A stretch of DNA of 64,000 nt from Alicyclobacillus kakegawensis NBRC 103104 (GTDB lineage: Bacteria; Bacillota; Bacilli; Alicyclobacillales; Alicyclobacillaceae): positions 1 to 64,000 of the forward strand of contig NZ_BCRP01000016.1 in the NCBI RefSeq assembly GCF_001552655.1. The letters are read 5' to 3'. Both the position numbers and the translations under genes were made by a program. The notes below the pieces were generated by a model. The model was not told the origin of the DNA. It saw only the letters and a program-made list of their open reading frames with translations, and made no database searches. Positions within the stretch are counted from its first letter, which is position 1. The number at the start of each line of letters is the position of its first letter. Shown piece after piece: positions 4,812 to 48,168 of the stretch.

Positions 4812-6809
4812 GTGCGAACTGATCCCGCCACTTTGGAAATTCTAAGGAGCTATTTCAACGCTATTGCCGCGGGGATGGGACATGTCATTGAGCGGACCTC
4901 CTTTACCACGTTTGTCAAGGAATCTGCTGACTTTGCGACGGCATTGGCGACGCCGTCCGGGGAGTTTTTTGTCTATCCTCGTACAGTAGGTGTAACTATC
5001 TTTGTCGGACTTAGCTTAGAACGGGCCATTCGAGAATGCGGACATTTGAATCCAGGCGACATCATCATCACAAACGATCCGTATTCGACGGATGGTTTGG
5101 CGACTCACCTGCCGGATGTGCATATCATCAAACCGATTTTTGTGGATGGCACATTAATCAGTTATGCGTGGGCATTTGTACATTGCAGCGATGTCGGTGG
5201 GCTTGTTCCGGCTAGCATCTCTCCTACCGCCACGGAAATTCATCAGGAAGGACTCCGGATCCCTCCGGTCAAATTGTATCGCCAGGGCAAACTGAATGAA
5301 GAAGTGCAGAAGCTGTTTATGGCCAACTGCAGAATCCCGGATCTGAACGAAGGCGACATCAACTCCATGGTTGCGGCCGTAAACACCGCCGAAGCCCGGT
5401 TGCATGAGATGGTTAGAAAGTTTGGCTTACAGATAGTTCAGCAGTCCATGGAGGACCTTTTGGAACAGGCCGAGGAGCGGGCACGTCGAGTCATCTCGGA
5501 CATTCCGGATGGAACATATACCTTTTCCGATTATCTGGACAGCGACATGATGTCTGAGGTCCCGATTCGCCTTTCTGTGAAATTACAAGTATCTGGGAGC
5601 GACATCACTTTAGATTTGTCGAATTGTGATCCACAAACGGCAACGGCATTTAACTTGGTAACGAATGGTTCCCGGCACTCGTTTCTATTTCAAGGTCTAA
5701 TCAATTACATTATTAGTTCCGATCCGTACATCCCCGTCAACGGCGGCATCGCACACCCGATTCATGTCGTCGCTCCCAAGGGGACAGTGGTCAACGCGGA
5801 ATATCCCGCGGCTGTCGGTGTCAGACACACCATCACCATGCGGATGTACAACGCGATTCTTGGAGCGCTCGCTCAGGCCATACCTGACAAAATTCCTGCC
5901 GCAGGCGCGGGACAGGCTGCGATTGTGGTGCTTTCGACGCCCGATGAACTAACTGGTGCTAGGAATGTGACCGTCGTTGAACCGATGGGAGGAGGTGGTG
6001 GCGGCCAGTATGACATGGACGGCGTGGATGGAATTGATCACGCGTCAGGATTCCTAAAGAACACGCCCATTGAAAGCTTAGAGCATCACATTGACGTGCT
6101 TGTGACACGATATGAATTGTTGCCCGACAGTGCGGGGCCAGGTATGCATCGCGGCGGGCACGCAATCCGTCTCGATTTTGAAATTCTAAAACCAGGATCC
6201 ATTGTGACTGCCCGAGGGATGGAGCGTGTACACTTTCAACCGTGGGGTCTCCGAGGTGGCCGAGCGGGTTCCCTGGGAAGTGTCCTGTTGAACCCGGGTC
6301 TGCCAAATGAGCAACGCCTGTCCAAGATTGATGTTCTTATGCCAGATCCCGGCGATGTCGTAAGCATTCGTTCGCCGGGAGGAGGCGGTTGGGGCAGTCC
6401 GTATCACCGGGATCCAAGGCGAGTGCTCGAAGATGTGGAATCAGGTCTATTGAGTTCTGATGAGGCGAAAGCGAGTTACGGTGTCGTCATTCGGAAAGGA
6501 GGTGACGCACTTGAAGTAGATGAGGTAGCCACTACGAGTCTTCGTGGCATGCTTACTGCTTCCCAGGATTCTGAAGGACTTTGGGACTTCGGGTTCGCTC
6601 GGGAGGAGTACGAGCGGCGCTGGTCGTCCGAGGCGAGCGATGCTCTTGCACAGCTCTTAATCACCTTGCCTGCAGCGCAACGTTCATATTGGAAACATAG
6701 GATTCATGAGATGTCACGCAGCATTCAACTTGATGGACCCGTTCAAGCTGAAACGGTTCACAAAATGTGGGAGCAACTCAGATTCGGCTCTAAGGAGGAT
6801 CATCTATGA
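4812..6809 (+). CDS. hyuB: Hydantoinase/5-oxoprolinase subunit B (HyuB family)
   Basis: Partner subunit of HyuA in an ATP-dependent ring-opening hydrolase. The product has 665 residues. It starts with GTG at 4812 after AAGGAGG. The family landmarks are present: the N-terminal IERTSFTTFVKES region, the NDPYSTDGLATHLPDVH segment that holds metal-binding acidic and histidine residues in the family, SCRH-like NGSRHSFLFQGL, GGGGGGQYDMDGVDG, and the C-terminal RSPGGGGWG. Its stop overlaps the start of the substrate-binding protein gene (ATGA at 6806), so it is translationally coupled to the transporter genes. That suggests the transporter imports the substrate of HyuAB. Confidence 0.92.
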   Translation: MRTDPATLEILRSYFNAIAAGMGHVIERTSFTTFVKESADFATALATPSGEFFVYPRTVGVTIFVGLSLERAIRECGHLNPGDIIITNDPYSTDGLATHLPDVHIIKPIFVDGTLISYAWAFVHCSDVGGLVPASISPTATEIHQEGLRIPPVKLYRQGKLNEEVQKLFMANCRIPDLNEGDINSMVAAVNTAEARLHEMVRKFGLQIVQQSMEDLLEQAEERARRVISDIPDGTYTFSDYLDSDMMSEVPIRLSVKLQVSGSDITLDLSNCDPQTATAFNLVTNGSRHSFLFQGLINYIISSDPYIPVNGGIAHPIHVVAPKGTVVNAEYPAAVGVRHTITMRMYNAILGALAQAIPDKIPAAGAGQAAIVVLSTPDELTGARNVTVVEPMGGGGGGQYDMDGVDGIDHASGFLKNTPIESLEHHIDVLVTRYELLPDSAGPGMHRGGHAIRLDFEILKPGSIVTARGMERVHFQPWGLRGGRAGSLGSVLLNPGLPNEQRLSKIDVLMPDPGDVVSIRSPGGGGWGSPYHRDPRRVLEDVESGLLSSDEAKASYGVVIRKGGDALEVDEVATTSLRGMLTASQDSEGLWDFGFAREEYERRWSSEASDALAQLLITLPAAQRSYWKHRIHEMSRSIQLDGPVQAETVHKMWEQLRFGSKEDHL

Positions 6810-18986: not shown

Positions 18987-19023
18987 AAAAAACACCCAGG
19001 CGAAACCGCTTGCCGCCTGGGTG
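18987..19023 (-). terminator. Rho-independent terminator of the 19077-19226 peptide gene
   Basis: CACCCAGGCG (18993-19002) pairs perfectly with CGCCTGGGTG (19014-19023) around an 11-base loop. On the minus strand the stem is followed by six T residues (plus-strand A-run 18987-18992). The U-tract orientation shows it terminates leftward transcription. The only candidate gene it can serve is the small peptide gene ending at 19077. It may also stop read-through from the SPFH gene less efficiently. Confidence 0.88.
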
Positions 19024-19076
19024 TGCTCCCGGGGTGATATGGAATGCTTCAGTAGAGTCCGAATGTGCTGGGGATC

Positions 19077-19226
19077 TTAGAAAAACGATTCGCCAATGGG
19101 AAACCCGTCAGGGTGCGCTGTGAACGTTGATGAGACTGAGAGCGTGCTGGATAATGCTGTGTAGGCCAACGGTGCGATAGCTGACATGGCGACTACGACA
19201 GACGCAAGCGCAATCAGCTTCTTCAT
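19077..19226 (-). CDS. Small secreted peptide, candidate signalling pro-peptide
   Basis: 49-codon gene not belonging to any family I recognise. The product has a classical Sec signal: KK, then a hydrophobic core (LIALASVVVAMSAIAPLA) with a likely cleavage near AYTA. A short mature tail follows, reading SSTFTAHPDGFPIGESFF at the end. The ATG at 19226 (or the adjacent GTG at 19229) follows GAGGTG. A good SigA promoter (19304-19333) lies upstream and a strong terminator 54 bases downstream. It therefore looks like a complete monocistronic unit. Size and layout resemble PapR, NprX and Phr precursors, whose C-terminal 5-10 residues become an exported signal. It is divergent from the kinase-TPR operon beginning at 19424, the proposed sensing partner. 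Confidence 0.72.
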   Translation of the reverse strand: MKKLIALASVVVAMSAIAPLAYTALSSTLSVSSTFTAHPDGFPIGESFF

Positions 19227-19303
19227 CACAATGTATCACCTCGTCCTTTGCCCCCGGGGGCCGCCTGTTTGAGCGCGAAATGTGTCGTATTTCCTTGTGG
19301 ATG

Positions 19304-19333
19304 ATTTTAACTATGAATCCACCTGACTGTCAA
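19304..19333 (-). promoter_or_regulatory. SigA promoter of the small peptide gene
   Basis: On the minus strand, TTGACA (plus positions 19328-19333), an 18-base spacer and TAAAAT (19304-19309). It points toward the peptide gene starting at 19226, giving a leader of about 70 bases that contains a GGCCCCCGGGGGC palindrome at about 19250-19262. The kinase operon is transcribed the opposite way from the same 197-base gap. Confidence 0.75.
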
Positions 19334-19423
19334 CGCTCTATTGATATTTTTGTGATTATCGTTTTTCGGTTATGATAGAGAAGAGATATTCTGACAGGAT
19401 GCAACCAAAATGCGAGGACATTG

Positions 19424-20092
19424 ATGGTGGTCAGGGGTGTGCCTGTGGAGAATTTCAACTCTGAACGCATAATCGAACTGCTCGAAGAGGAACGCAAACG
19501 TATGGCCAGGGACATTCACGATGGGCCAGCCCAGAGCTTGACCAACGTGACTATGCGCCTGGAGGTTACAGAACGCATGCTTGAAAACGGACGCCTGGAG
19601 GATTCGATTCAGGAGATTGAGCGCCTGAAGTCTATCCTCAGGACCGCGATTAACGATGTGCGGCGCCTCATCTTCGACCTGCGCCCCTCGTTTTTGGAGC
19701 GCGGCGTATCCGACGCCATCCGCTTATATGCTGAACGGTTTTCGCAAATGTCTGGTCTGCCGGTGACGGTAGATAGTGAGTGGGGACAGCCTAATCTATC
19801 CCGTAGCGCGGCGGTCGCGGTATTTCGAGTAGTTCAAGAGGCGCTGAATAACATTCATAAACACGCCAAAGCCACGACAATTGAAATACGGTTGCTCCAT
19901 AGGAATGGCGTCTATCAGGCACTCGTAAAGGATGATGGAAAGGGCTTTGCGACAGACGTATCGTCGTCGGCGTCCTACGGTTTGCAGGGTATGAAAGAGC
20001 GGATGGAGCTAGTGGGAGGCCGCGTTATGGTCCAGTCGCAACCTGGCCACGGGACCCTGGTCACATGCGAGGTGCCCGCAGCGGATGAATGA
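19424..20092 (+). CDS. Soluble histidine kinase, DegS/NarX type, without sensor domain
   Basis: 222-residue kinase with only the transmitter. The HisKA_3 dimerisation helix carries the phospho-acceptor His32 (MARDIHDGPAQSL), and the HATPase_c domain has an N-box (VVQEALNNIHKHAKA) and a G-box (VKDDGKGFA). There is no membrane segment and no recognisable input domain, so the signal must come from a partner. The ATG at 19424 follows GAGGAC; a TTG lies directly before it. The gene overlaps the TPR gene by 8 bases, so the two are translationally coupled, and a NarL-type regulator follows. It is divergent from the small peptide gene. Confidence 0.9.
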   Translation: MVVRGVPVENFNSERIIELLEEERKRMARDIHDGPAQSLTNVTMRLEVTERMLENGRLEDSIQEIERLKSILRTAINDVRRLIFDLRPSFLERGVSDAIRLYAERFSQMSGLPVTVDSEWGQPNLSRSAAVAVFRVVQEALNNIHKHAKATTIEIRLLHRNGVYQALVKDDGKGFATDVSSSASYGLQGMKERMELVGGRVMVQSQPGHGTLVTCEVPAADE

Positions 20093-21527
20093 GAAATGGA
20101 GGCTTGGATTTGCCCACTTTCAACGAGGCAATTACTATGCCGCGATCCATTCATGCCAGCAATATGCCCAAGAGGCTACTGATAGCGTGGAACGCGCTTC
20201 ATTCTTAAATTCTGTGGGTGCCACTGTATTTCGCCTCAAGTCCCCTGAAGCGGCTCGGCCCTACTACGAGCAGGCACTGTCCCTGTTGGGAAATGAGAAT
20301 GGGGATCATGTAATAGCTCTTAGATTGAAGTGTACAGCGAACCTCGCTCTCGTCTTGGGCAATGCAGGCCATGTCGATGAAGCGTTGCGCGTGTGCCAAG
20401 CCGTTTTGGAACAGACCTCCAATCAATTTCCTTATGAGTCGTCTGCGTTATTAAGCACCTACATATATTCGCTAATACGCTCGGAGCTGTACGAGCAGGC
20501 CTTGGAATTGTTTCCTGCTGTCCTAGAGATGATTCGCTTGATTGCTGATCCTGGTCTGCAACGGGTCTTGGAGGGGCTGCTCCGCTACAATGTGGGTTGC
20601 GCGGCAGAAGCCATGGGAAAATTTGAAGAGGCCCTGTGTCATTTTCATAAGGCCGCTCAGGTCGATCCCGCGTCCGGGCCCTATCAAGGCATTGCGCGTA
20701 TGTACCTATATCTCGAACGACCAGCAGAAGCGATTCAATATACTTCGGAATTCTATCGCAGCGTATGGGGAAATTCTATGGCTGACGGAAATGTCAAGCT
20801 AGCAGACAATCTGTACCTGATTGGGTTGTTTGCGTATTATGCTGCCCAGAGAGATTTGAGCGCGCGATGCGTGGAGAAGGCCGAGATCTACCTTGGCCAG
20901 GCTTGTTACTGGAACGAATGGCTTAAAGTCCGCGATTTTGATTCTTGGGTTAGCCAGCGCGACATTGTCATTCCCGAAGACACTTTTGACTGGCCGCTCT
21001 GGCATCAGTTTCTGGATGAGTTGAGCCTCATCGACAGCTTTGAGACCATGTTCCCGCGGTTTGCGCACATGCCGCGGTACGAGGCCAATCTGGCCGCGCA
21101 GTTGTACGAGCGGATCGTGCCGGACGCGCCGTGGGATGATATACGGCGGTTGCAGGTGGCAGGGCGCTTGGTGTATCTTGGGTTGACTGTCATGACGTCG
21201 AATGAAGAGGAAGCTGCCTCCATTCTCAGTGATCGGTCCTCCATCCCTGAGATTGGGCAGCTCGGCGTTCGCCTGCTTGAGGCGTACCCGCACAGCGAAA
21301 ACTATCGCTATCTGATTCCGGCATGCCGCAAGGGTGCGGACGTGTCGGGGTTGACGGACGAAGACCGGTTGATGGCGGAGTGCCTCGGCTTGTCGCTGGA
21401 TTACGTGGAGCTGATGGAACTGTATGGGCTGTCTCATGACGAGGCCATGCGAGAATTGGCATCAAGTCGCTACCATCTCTACGATCCGCGAGTGGTAGAT
21501 TCTTTTCGCGCTCAAATGACAGTGTAA
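20085..21527 (+). CDS. TPR protein with degenerate HD-GYP domain
   Basis: 480-residue cytoplasmic protein without signal or membrane segment. Residues about 5-270 form TPR-type helical pairs (for example NYYAAIHSCQQYA, EAARPYYEQALSLL, KFEEALCHFHKAA, AEAIQYTSEFYRS). Residues about 312-476 follow the helical order of HD-GYP domains and end with the family-like DPRVVDSF, but the HD dyad and the GYP motif are absent (AGRLVYLGL stands where LLHDIG is expected). The domain should be catalytically dead and may bind a ligand or partner. There is no DNA-binding domain. It overlaps the kinase gene, suggesting the TPR protein controls the kinase. The HD-GYP assignment is my reading of the pattern and needs a profile search. 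Confidence 0.72.
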   Translation: MNEKWRLGFAHFQRGNYYAAIHSCQQYAQEATDSVERASFLNSVGATVFRLKSPEAARPYYEQALSLLGNENGDHVIALRLKCTANLALVLGNAGHVDEALRVCQAVLEQTSNQFPYESSALLSTYIYSLIRSELYEQALELFPAVLEMIRLIADPGLQRVLEGLLRYNVGCAAEAMGKFEEALCHFHKAAQVDPASGPYQGIARMYLYLERPAEAIQYTSEFYRSVWGNSMADGNVKLADNLYLIGLFAYYAAQRDLSARCVEKAEIYLGQACYWNEWLKVRDFDSWVSQRDIVIPEDTFDWPLWHQFLDELSLIDSFETMFPRFAHMPRYEANLAAQLYERIVPDAPWDDIRRLQVAGRLVYLGLTVMTSNEEEAASILSDRSSIPEIGQLGVRLLEAYPHSENYRYLIPACRKGADVSGLTDEDRLMAECLGLSLDYVELMELYGLSHDEAMRELASSRYHLYDPRVVDSFRAQMTV

Positions 21528-21588
21528 GCGCTGGTATGGGTCCCTTTTCACGATCAACCGGACAGATGAACACTCCAAGGAGGTTGAC

Positions 21589-22332
21589 ATGAACCACTTG
21601 CTGCAACATCTAACCCTCCCGCAGACCCATCGCGGGTCTTCCGTCTCCGCTCCGGTTGTGTCGCAGGGGAGAGTGCGCGTTCACACTTTGATGACCCATC
21701 CGCTGTTTGATGTCGCCGTGAGGTCCTTGTTTTCCCAGCGACCGAACTTTGAATCCGGGAACTCGTTTCACGGCTTGGAAGACCTCCTGCATGGGCTGCG
21801 TGGCCCGGAAGACGAGTTGATGGACGTCCTTATCACCGACATCACGCCGGATGCGCGGACGACGCCGCGGTTTATGGCTGAACTTCGGCAATTGCGGCCG
21901 CAGTTGGCGGTTGTTCACCTGATTCCGGAGACCGACGACGCCGCCGTGATTGTGCAGGCGTTTCGCTGGGGCGCCGACGCATACCTGTTTCAAACGGCGC
22001 CGGTCGAAGTGCTGGAGCAGGCGGTGAACACGGTGCTGGAAGGGAAGGCGTACATCCAGACTCACCTGACCCCGTTGGTCTTGGCTGAGATTCGACGGCC
22101 GGATCAGGCCGTGTTCACAGCAGAAATTGACGTGCCTTTGAATGAGCGGGAGCAGATGCTCCTGCAGCTGGCCACGGACGGACTGAACAACCGGGCGATT
22201 GCCGAAGTGTTTGGTGTGACGGAAAAGACGGTGCGTGGCATGTGGTCCACGTTGATCCGCAAGCTTGGTGTGAACGACCGCACGCAGGCGGTGCTCTGGT
22301 CCATCCGCTCCGGCTTCACACGCCTCCATTGA
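21589..22332 (+). CDS. NarL/LuxR-type regulator with degenerate receiver
   Basis: 247-residue DNA-binding protein. The C-terminal GerE helix-turn-helix is intact (LNEREQMLLQLATDGLNNRA through VTEKTVRGMWSTLIRKLGV). The N-terminal receiver keeps Asp84 (LITDITPD), but the paired acidic residues are replaced by Met35-Thr36 (TLMTHPLF where IVDDHPLF is usual). The invariant lysine is replaced by Gln135 (YLFQTAP). Normal magnesium-dependent phosphorylation is therefore doubtful. The ATG follows AAGGAGG. It lies 61 bases after the TPR gene and is the likely output of that operon. A preceding N-terminal extension of about 28 residues is unusual for this family. Confidence 0.85.
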   Translation: MNHLLQHLTLPQTHRGSSVSAPVVSQGRVRVHTLMTHPLFDVAVRSLFSQRPNFESGNSFHGLEDLLHGLRGPEDELMDVLITDITPDARTTPRFMAELRQLRPQLAVVHLIPETDDAAVIVQAFRWGADAYLFQTAPVEVLEQAVNTVLEGKAYIQTHLTPLVLAEIRRPDQAVFTAEIDVPLNEREQMLLQLATDGLNNRAIAEVFGVTEKTVRGMWSTLIRKLGVNDRTQAVLWSIRSGFTRLH

Positions 22333-47645: not shown

Positions 47646-47672
47646 CAAAAAACGCCCCGCAAATGCGGGGCG
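47646..47672 (-). terminator. Rho-independent terminator of the cold-shock gene
   Basis: CGCCCCGC (47653-47660) and GCGGGGCG (47665-47672) with a 4-base loop. On the minus strand this is followed by a T-run (A-run 47647-47651 and neighbours on the plus strand). It lies 33 bases beyond the cold-shock gene stop. Confidence 0.88.
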
Positions 47673-47705
47673 ATTCGATTCTCATGTGAGTACAGTCAGA
47701 GAAGT

Positions 47706-47903
47706 TTACAGTTTCTGGACGTTGGCAGCCTGCGGACCACGCTGACCCTCGACGACGTCGAATTCAACAGCCTGGCCTTCCTCAAGAGTACGGAAACCTT
47801 CACCCAAGATGGCGGTGTAGTGCACGAATACGTCGTTGCCACCCTCCATCTGGATGAAACCATAGCCCTTCTCCGCATTGAACCACTTTACAGTTCCTTG
47901 CAC
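47706..47903 (-). CDS. csp: Cold shock protein, CspA family
   Basis: 65-residue single-stranded nucleic-acid-binding protein, an RNA chaperone. It has RNP1-type KGYGFIQ and RNP2-type VFVHY on a five-strand OB fold, with the usual [12 protein letters not shown] start. The start is GTG at 47903, seven bases after GGGAGG. The leader to the promoter at 48003-48031 is about 95 bases and holds repeated GTAC blocks. Long leaders are common in csp genes and act in cold regulation. A terminator follows at 47646. Confidence 0.95.
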
Positions 47904-47922
47904 ACGTAATGCCTCCCACTCA

Positions 47923-47978
47923 GTACCATCGTACCAGAGCCAAGTACTTCTCCGTACTCCTGCGCCGTACCATCGTAC
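47923..47978 (-). repeat. Repeated GTAC blocks in the cold-shock leader
   Basis: GTACCATCGTAC occurs twice (47923-47934 and 47967-47978), 44 bases apart, with GTACTTCTCCGTAC (47944-47957) between them. All three are GTAC-spacer-GTAC units that can fold as small hairpins or pair with each other. They lie wholly in the csp 5' leader. A role as an RNA thermosensor element is conceivable but unproven. Confidence 0.5.
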
Positions 47979-48002
47979 TAAAAGATATTTGGTGCCGATG
48001 TA

Positions 48003-48031
48003 AATATAACACCGGCGCGCGGGTGTGTCAA
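48003..48031 (-). promoter_or_regulatory. SigA promoter of the cold-shock gene
   Basis: On the minus strand, TTGACA (plus 48026-48031), a 17-base spacer, and TATATT (48003-48008). It is near-consensus and points toward csp. It lies about 140 bases from the divergent metalloprotease gene. Confidence 0.85.
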
Positions 48032-48168
48032 ACACACCCTCTGATAAGAGTATATCACATCGCGCCGGCAAAGTTGCATGCGGCGTGGGAGAATCAGGTT
48101 TGTCCGCTGTCGCTGGCGGCCAGACTAAGACTAGAAACACGCGGATTTTTTGCGAGCGGGGTGTGGTC

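Follow-up and report, generated by a model that had tools for sequence, protein, structure and literature searches.

The 64,000-nucleotide stretch of Alicyclobacillus kakegawensis NBRC 103104 analyzed here (the window; contig NZ_BCRP01000016.1, positions 1 to 64,000) carries a cassette in which a short gene for a peptide with a putative Sec-type export signal stands divergent from the genes of a histidine kinase, a tetratricopeptide repeat (TPR) protein and a LuxR-type regulator (Table 1). The cassette is probably a peptide-signaling system in which the TPR protein serves as the input of the kinase to which it is coupled. The link between peptide and TPR protein is well supported by comparative evidence, and putative control of the kinase by the TPR protein is the natural reading of the tight coupling of their genes; the regulator step is not supported, and a classical phosphorelay is doubtful. 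A first-pass annotation of the window had proposed a route from peptide through TPR protein and kinase to the regulator. Its upper part gains support from a peptide gene that accompanies the TPR gene at about 30 loci, a predicted receptor-like TPR fold and a kinase gene translationally coupled or adjacent to the TPR gene in most loci. Its last step is not supported, the regulator being found in four loci only and having a degenerate receiver.

The gene structures described in that annotation were confirmed, including the promoter and terminator of the peptide gene. The peptide gene, for which GTG 19229 is an alternative start, is preceded by the Shine-Dalgarno (SD) sequence GAGGTGA, and its product has the basic n-region and hydrophobic core of a Sec-type signal, as judged by eye and by a hydropathy criterion. 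Its C-terminus, HPDGFPIGESFF, keeps the PDG part of the family motif given below. In the closest named relative, A. shizuokensis, whose TPR protein is 75% identical, the promoter hexamers and their spacing are kept, the spacer sequence differs (read from the alignment), and the terminator sequence is identical. This terminator, which in the window lies in a 55-nt stretch folding at -24.7 kcal/mol, was missed by a short-loop consensus scan because its loop is long. The A. shizuokensis orthologue of the peptide is likewise 49 aa long, and the two frames differ at 18, 11 and 36 sites of codon positions 1, 2 and 3; this distribution, together with recurrence in 31 loci, marks the frame as more than chance. 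A ratio of nonsynonymous to synonymous substitution (dN/dS) was not computable for this pair because synonymous sites are saturated, and no clear paralogue of the peptide was found in the window's own genome (G000, 3.42 Mb). The kinase has only HisKA_3 and HATPase domains in Pfam, with no sensor domain or membrane segment, and its gene overlaps the TPR gene by 8 nt. Its start is uncertain, GTG 19439 or 19445 also being possible; its HDGPAQ motif, N box and G box are intact, which places both the phospho-His and the ATP-binding elements in the protein. A gap of 61 nt separates the TPR gene from the regulator gene.

Table 1. Coordinates of the cassette and its transcription signals in the window.
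Feature	Positions	Strand	Basis
Terminator of peptide transcript, hairpin then T-run	18987-19025	minus	Sequence and fold
Pro-peptide gene, 49 codons, MKKLIALASVVVAMSAIAPLAYTALSSTLSVSSTFTAHPDGFPIGESFF	19077-19226	minus	Open reading frame (ATG 19226, stop 19077)
Peptide-gene promoter, TTGACA-18-TAAAAT, 11/12	19304-19333	minus	Sequence match and A. shizuokensis hexamers
Sensorless cytoplasmic histidine kinase, HisKA_3 and HATPase_c, about 210-223 aa	19421-20092	plus	Pfam; aligned relatives
TPR protein, 480 aa; TPR array residues 1-294, degenerate HD-GYP 297-480	20085-21527	plus	Pfam, models, folds
LuxR-type regulator with pseudo-receiver, window clade only	21589-22332	plus	Pfam, NarL alignment

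A scan with the single TPR protein matched A. shizuokensis only, and whole-genome searches were needed to reveal the family beyond it. Of 41 genomes of the bacterial family, 23 then gave TPR homologues in a single-sequence search, and of 59 genomes of the order, 32 gave them in a profile search. Among 399 genomes sampled from the class, every match with E <= 1e-45 belonged to the order. The phylum sample gave four further distant genomes with TPR matches. Loci L106 and L107, from one family outside the class, have peptide, kinase and TPR genes; L108, a distant match of the TPR profile, has no cassette. In L109, from a distant genome of the phylum, a riboswitch of class c-di-GMP-I (cyclic di-GMP; 131-214) lies directly before the TPR gene (317-1837), and neither peptide nor kinase is present. 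Conservation of the peptide frame beside the kinase-TPR pair had been set beforehand as the test on which the proposal could fail, and the proposal came through it: a small open reading frame with an SD sequence, a basic n-region and a hydrophobic core adjoins either the kinase or the TPR gene at 31 loci, 29 within the order and two outside the class. By a blind criterion based on hydropathy, 25 of 35 loci scored positive for a peptide gene, compared with 13 of 143 control genes taken from the DNA of these loci (Fisher p = 2e-13). The pro-peptides are 44-74 aa long in all loci, and an AxA site is frequent by eye in the predicted signal sequences. The dN/dS values obtained for four close pairs (0.32, 0.14, 0.07 and 0.16), a check that the first-pass annotation had called for, indicate coding constraint and point to purifying selection on the peptide gene. 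Constraint on the amino acids extends past the signal sequence. After a variable Ser/Thr-rich stretch, the very C-terminus holds a short conserved motif, in many cases close to (P/H)DG(W)xxxIW(D/E), with SPDGMIWIWD, SPDTLVRPIWD, TPDSTLPIVVE, THDGFRLVVE and SHGWREIW as examples.

The riboswitch of the relatives, missing from the window, is the larger finding. On the peptide strand, a c-di-GMP-I aptamer (Rfam RF01051 or RF03167) lies 5' of the peptide gene in 27 of the 29 order-level loci; the only exceptions are the window and A. shizuokensis, where no c-di-GMP-I riboswitch was found at the peptide gene. The aptamer ends 21-32 nt before the start codon, or 83 nt in L034. This spacing fits an SD sequence but hardly a terminator, so the riboswitch likely controls translation of the peptide. 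At most loci the operon begins with the peptide gene. This gene is divergent in the window, A. shizuokensis and L034, and in L034 it is the divergent peptide gene, not the kinase, that the riboswitch precedes. At L107, outside the class, no Rfam riboswitch match was obtained, and the peptide gene comes after an EAL-like gene. The frame might be thought to yield no functional peptide, as a leader frame or by-product of the riboswitch leader, because in relatives no other frame comes between it and the riboswitch. Such an account is hardly credible: the frame has its own divergent transcript in the window and L034, signal-peptide character everywhere, and constraint beyond the signal part.

Both folds of the TPR protein are predicted. 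Pfam recognizes TPR_1 and TPR_12 in the window protein, and its full model has a mean predicted local distance difference test (pLDDT) score of 92.5. Residues 1-293 match peptide-bound receptors, namely phi3T Rap (Z 20.6), RapJ-CSF (20.2), RapF with an inhibitory peptide (19.5) and NprR-NprX (18.8), a likeness best read as that of a TPR of the peptide-binding type. On successive repeats, two Asn residues are conserved, one in 21 and the other in 23 of 26 members. The C-terminal half, annotated at first as a degenerate HD-GYP domain, has borne out that description. It falls under Pfam HD_5 in 21 of 26 relatives, and the window domain modeled alone takes an HD-GYP fold (pLDDT 92.9) with HD-GYP structures as its top matches: c-di-GMP-bound 9rbz (Z 14.7 over 169 residues at 4.3 A), 4mcw (Z 13.2) and 4r8z (Z 13.1). 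Throughout the aligned family the HD motif is replaced by a FADYGLTAL-like sequence, so hydrolysis by this domain is unlikely. The HHExxDGSGYP motif is retained in most members and lost in a few, as well as in the window clade (W, L031, L032, L033 and L034; support 100/100), which leaves the window protein with neither the HD metal motif nor the GYP motif.

Each of the 26 first-set loci has a sensorless HisKA_3 kinase immediately 5' of its TPR gene (only part of one in L036 and L053). The 24 kinases that were aligned retain their catalytic motifs and are devoid of sensor and membrane segments. Loci L089, L093 and L094 have riboswitch, peptide and TPR genes and no kinase, the peptide gene lying directly before the TPR gene; on the tree their kinase was lost twice, once in L089 and once in L093 and L094. 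At L091 the riboswitch, peptide and TPR genes are intact and the kinase (between oriented positions 5457 and 6434) has lost its phospho-His, DLHDG having become DLSEG (ARDLSEGP), a natural pseudokinase. Since all four of these loci keep peptide and TPR genes, the peptide tracks the TPR protein, and the kinase, missing in three and without phospho-His in the fourth, is a common but not universal partner. This pattern of gene content favors the TPR protein as the probable partner of the peptide.

Several observations weigh against reading the cassette as a signaling chain. In the window peptide, the predicted cleavage site of the signal sequence is less canonical than in relatives, and of the two conserved groove Asn residues the window TPR protein keeps one (N169), the other being T125. 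The eukaryotic peptide-binding TPR of LGN matches as well as Rap and NprR (Z 20.8), and the tie therefore speaks for a peptide-binding type of TPR, not for RRNPP membership. Covariation of the peptide C-terminus with the TPR protein, another check suggested at the outset, did not turn out as hoped: in Mantel tests controlling for the kinase, the partial correlation between C-terminus and TPR distances is 0.26 (p = 0.0025), but it rises to 0.49 for the signal sequence, so the C-terminus is not special and the result reflects linkage, not specific co-adaptation. Seven loci have no peptide gene, most of them keeping kinase and TPR genes (L033, L043, L050, L053, L095 and L097 are the ones named; two loci cut by contig ends were set aside), and flank scans of L033, L043, L050, L053 and L095-L097 gave no convincing displaced peptide gene. 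Such loci, like export and small size alone, would suit a small protein that is not a signal but a secreted effector (an antimicrobial or a surface peptide, say), with kinase and TPR protein as its regulators. An effector is nonetheless quite unlikely, given that no immunity or transport gene was seen beside the peptide gene, that the C-terminal motif is placed as one would expect in pro-pheromones, and that the kinase-less loci set the peptide gene directly before the TPR gene.

The regulator is a further point against the chain. It has a LuxR-type helix-turn-helix domain and a receiver and is confined to the window clade (W, L031, L032 and L034). Aligned with NarL, the receiver keeps only the phospho-Asp position (D84) and, short of key residues as the first-pass annotation had noted, has no acidic pair (M35/T36), Thr/Ser (I112) or Lys (Q135); normal phosphorelay from kinase to regulator is therefore unlikely. 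RapF and RapG act on ComA and DegU, and the window TPR protein may by analogy act on the regulator directly, as Rap proteins do, or the kinase may serve an unlinked regulator. A general form of the first idea, in which the peptide-bound TPR protein has the regulator or another partner as its direct target and the kinase is accessory, would be consistent with the pseudo-receiver regulator that adjoins the TPR gene in the window clade and with the three loci without a kinase. It is improbable for the family as a whole, where most loci have no regulator beside the TPR gene and nearly all have a coupled, catalytically intact kinase.

Frequent neighbors of the cassette in relatives are FapA-like proteins, a stand-alone receiver, an EAL protein and a KaiC-like ATPase, and they point to c-di-GMP and perhaps to sporulation. 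A FapA-like beta-solenoid protein and a stand-alone receiver lie behind a c-di-GMP-I riboswitch of their own directly upstream of the cassette (L037:1834-3720, L051:1393-3240 and neighbors). On the minus strand near the TPR gene of G035 (L036:4222-5223), Pfam identifies an EAL-domain protein that ends in a Spo0E-like stretch and so may tie c-di-GMP directly to sporulation control; similar EAL proteins adjoin the cassette in L038 and L047. The KaiC-like ATPase gene is divergent from the cassette in the 5' flank of L040, L041, L049 and L052, in some of them with a LuxR-type helix-turn-helix (HTH) gene. The window genome has two c-di-GMP-I riboswitches elsewhere, before chemoreceptor-like genes (G000:C23:31980-32064 and G000:C2:107753-107848; L110 and L111), and the window itself has, at 47646-48041 on the minus strand, a sub-threshold match to the cspA thermoregulator of Rfam that spans the whole model (62.4 bits, gathering 78; E = 2.3e-13). 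With a c-di-GMP-I riboswitch and an HD-GYP fold in one cassette and FapA, EAL and receiver genes nearby, the TPR-HD-GYP protein could be supposed to sense c-di-GMP (or another nucleotide) only, the peptide being a separate product of the riboswitch-controlled operon. This supposition has very little probability, as the window clade has lost the GYP motif and the window the riboswitch, while constraint still maintains the genes for peptide, kinase and TPR protein.

For the favored reading, in which the TPR protein receives the peptide and informs the kinase, we infer the following course of export, import, binding, kinase control and output. The pro-peptide would leave the cell by Sec and be cut down to a short signal from its C-terminus, which would re-enter the cell, probably via an oligopeptide permease, and bind in the TPR groove. 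In place of the input domain that the coupled kinase lacks, the TPR protein would then alter kinase activity, with the degenerate HD-GYP half probably transmitting the change; in relatives keeping HHExxDGSGYP, this half may also sense c-di-GMP. Peptide synthesis would be controlled by the c-di-GMP-I riboswitch in most relatives, so that the signal would be gated by c-di-GMP there, and by a plain promoter in the window species. Output in the window might pass to the neighboring LuxR-type regulator by a route other than receiver phosphorylation, or to an unlinked regulator.

RapF and RapG, acting on ComA and DegU with the cytoplasmic kinase DegS, tie a peptide-TPR protein to a NarL/LuxR-type two-component pathway with a HisKA_3-type kinase. 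The cassette brings such elements together as well, but couples the TPR gene to the kinase gene itself, with a kinase that has no sensor and an adjacent receiver that is degenerate. ComQXPA and Agr likewise pair a peptide with a histidine kinase as a signaling unit; here the kinase is without membrane and sensor parts, a modification enzyme is absent, and the TPR protein would stand in for the sensor. The domain shares its fold with HD-GYP c-di-GMP phosphodiesterases, and most of the family share HHExxDGSGYP, but it differs from them in the FADYGLTAL-like sequence at the HD metal motif and in the fused TPR array, and in the window also in lacking the GYP motif. Like RRNPP systems (Rap-Phr, NprR-NprX, PlcR-PapR, AimR-AimP, AloR), the cassette has a small pro-peptide, apparently of Sec type, with a likely C-terminal signal beside a TPR protein of 250-500 aa whose TPR half fits the Rap and NprR structures. 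Unlike them, it has a kinase gene between or beside the two in most loci, a receptor with a degenerate HD-GYP domain and no DNA-binding domain, and, in most relatives, a c-di-GMP riboswitch before the peptide. The published RRNPP definition asks for a pro-peptide of 10-100 aa, Sec-dependent secretion, a TPR receptor of 250-500 aa, directly adjacent genes and an imported peptide that binds in the TPR groove (PMC10075063). The window pro-peptide (49 aa), those of all loci and the 480-aa receptor lie within these lengths; direct adjacency is seen only in the kinase-less L089, L093 and L094, the kinase gene lying between in the window. In that paper on RRNPP_detector, Alicyclobacillaceae are mentioned once, for HTH-type systems within biosynthetic clusters (PMC10075063). 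The cassette is apparently undescribed before: the main texts of open-licence papers gave no report of a peptide-TPR system joined to a kinase, an HD-GYP domain or a riboswitch (the supplements of PMC10075063 could list such loci), and open-licence papers gave no earlier link of a c-di-GMP riboswitch to a peptide pheromone gene of this kind.

Altogether, the cassette is best filed as a variant of peptide-TPR signaling that is tied to c-di-GMP in most members. More tentatively, and with a good chance of being wrong, it could represent a new signaling class in which c-di-GMP gates the pheromone through the riboswitch and a TPR receptor, whose degenerate HD-GYP domain senses c-di-GMP, takes over as sensor for the coupled kinase, so that a population signal and a second messenger are integrated, perhaps for decisions on sporulation or biofilm. 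Descriptions of Gram-positive peptide signaling name either a membrane kinase or a cytoplasmic TPR receptor, and the cassette appears to join the two types. Its roughly 30 natural variants, including kinase-less, dead-kinase and riboswitch-less forms, make it testable whether a TPR receptor can serve as the input of a kinase and whether a second messenger gates a pheromone.

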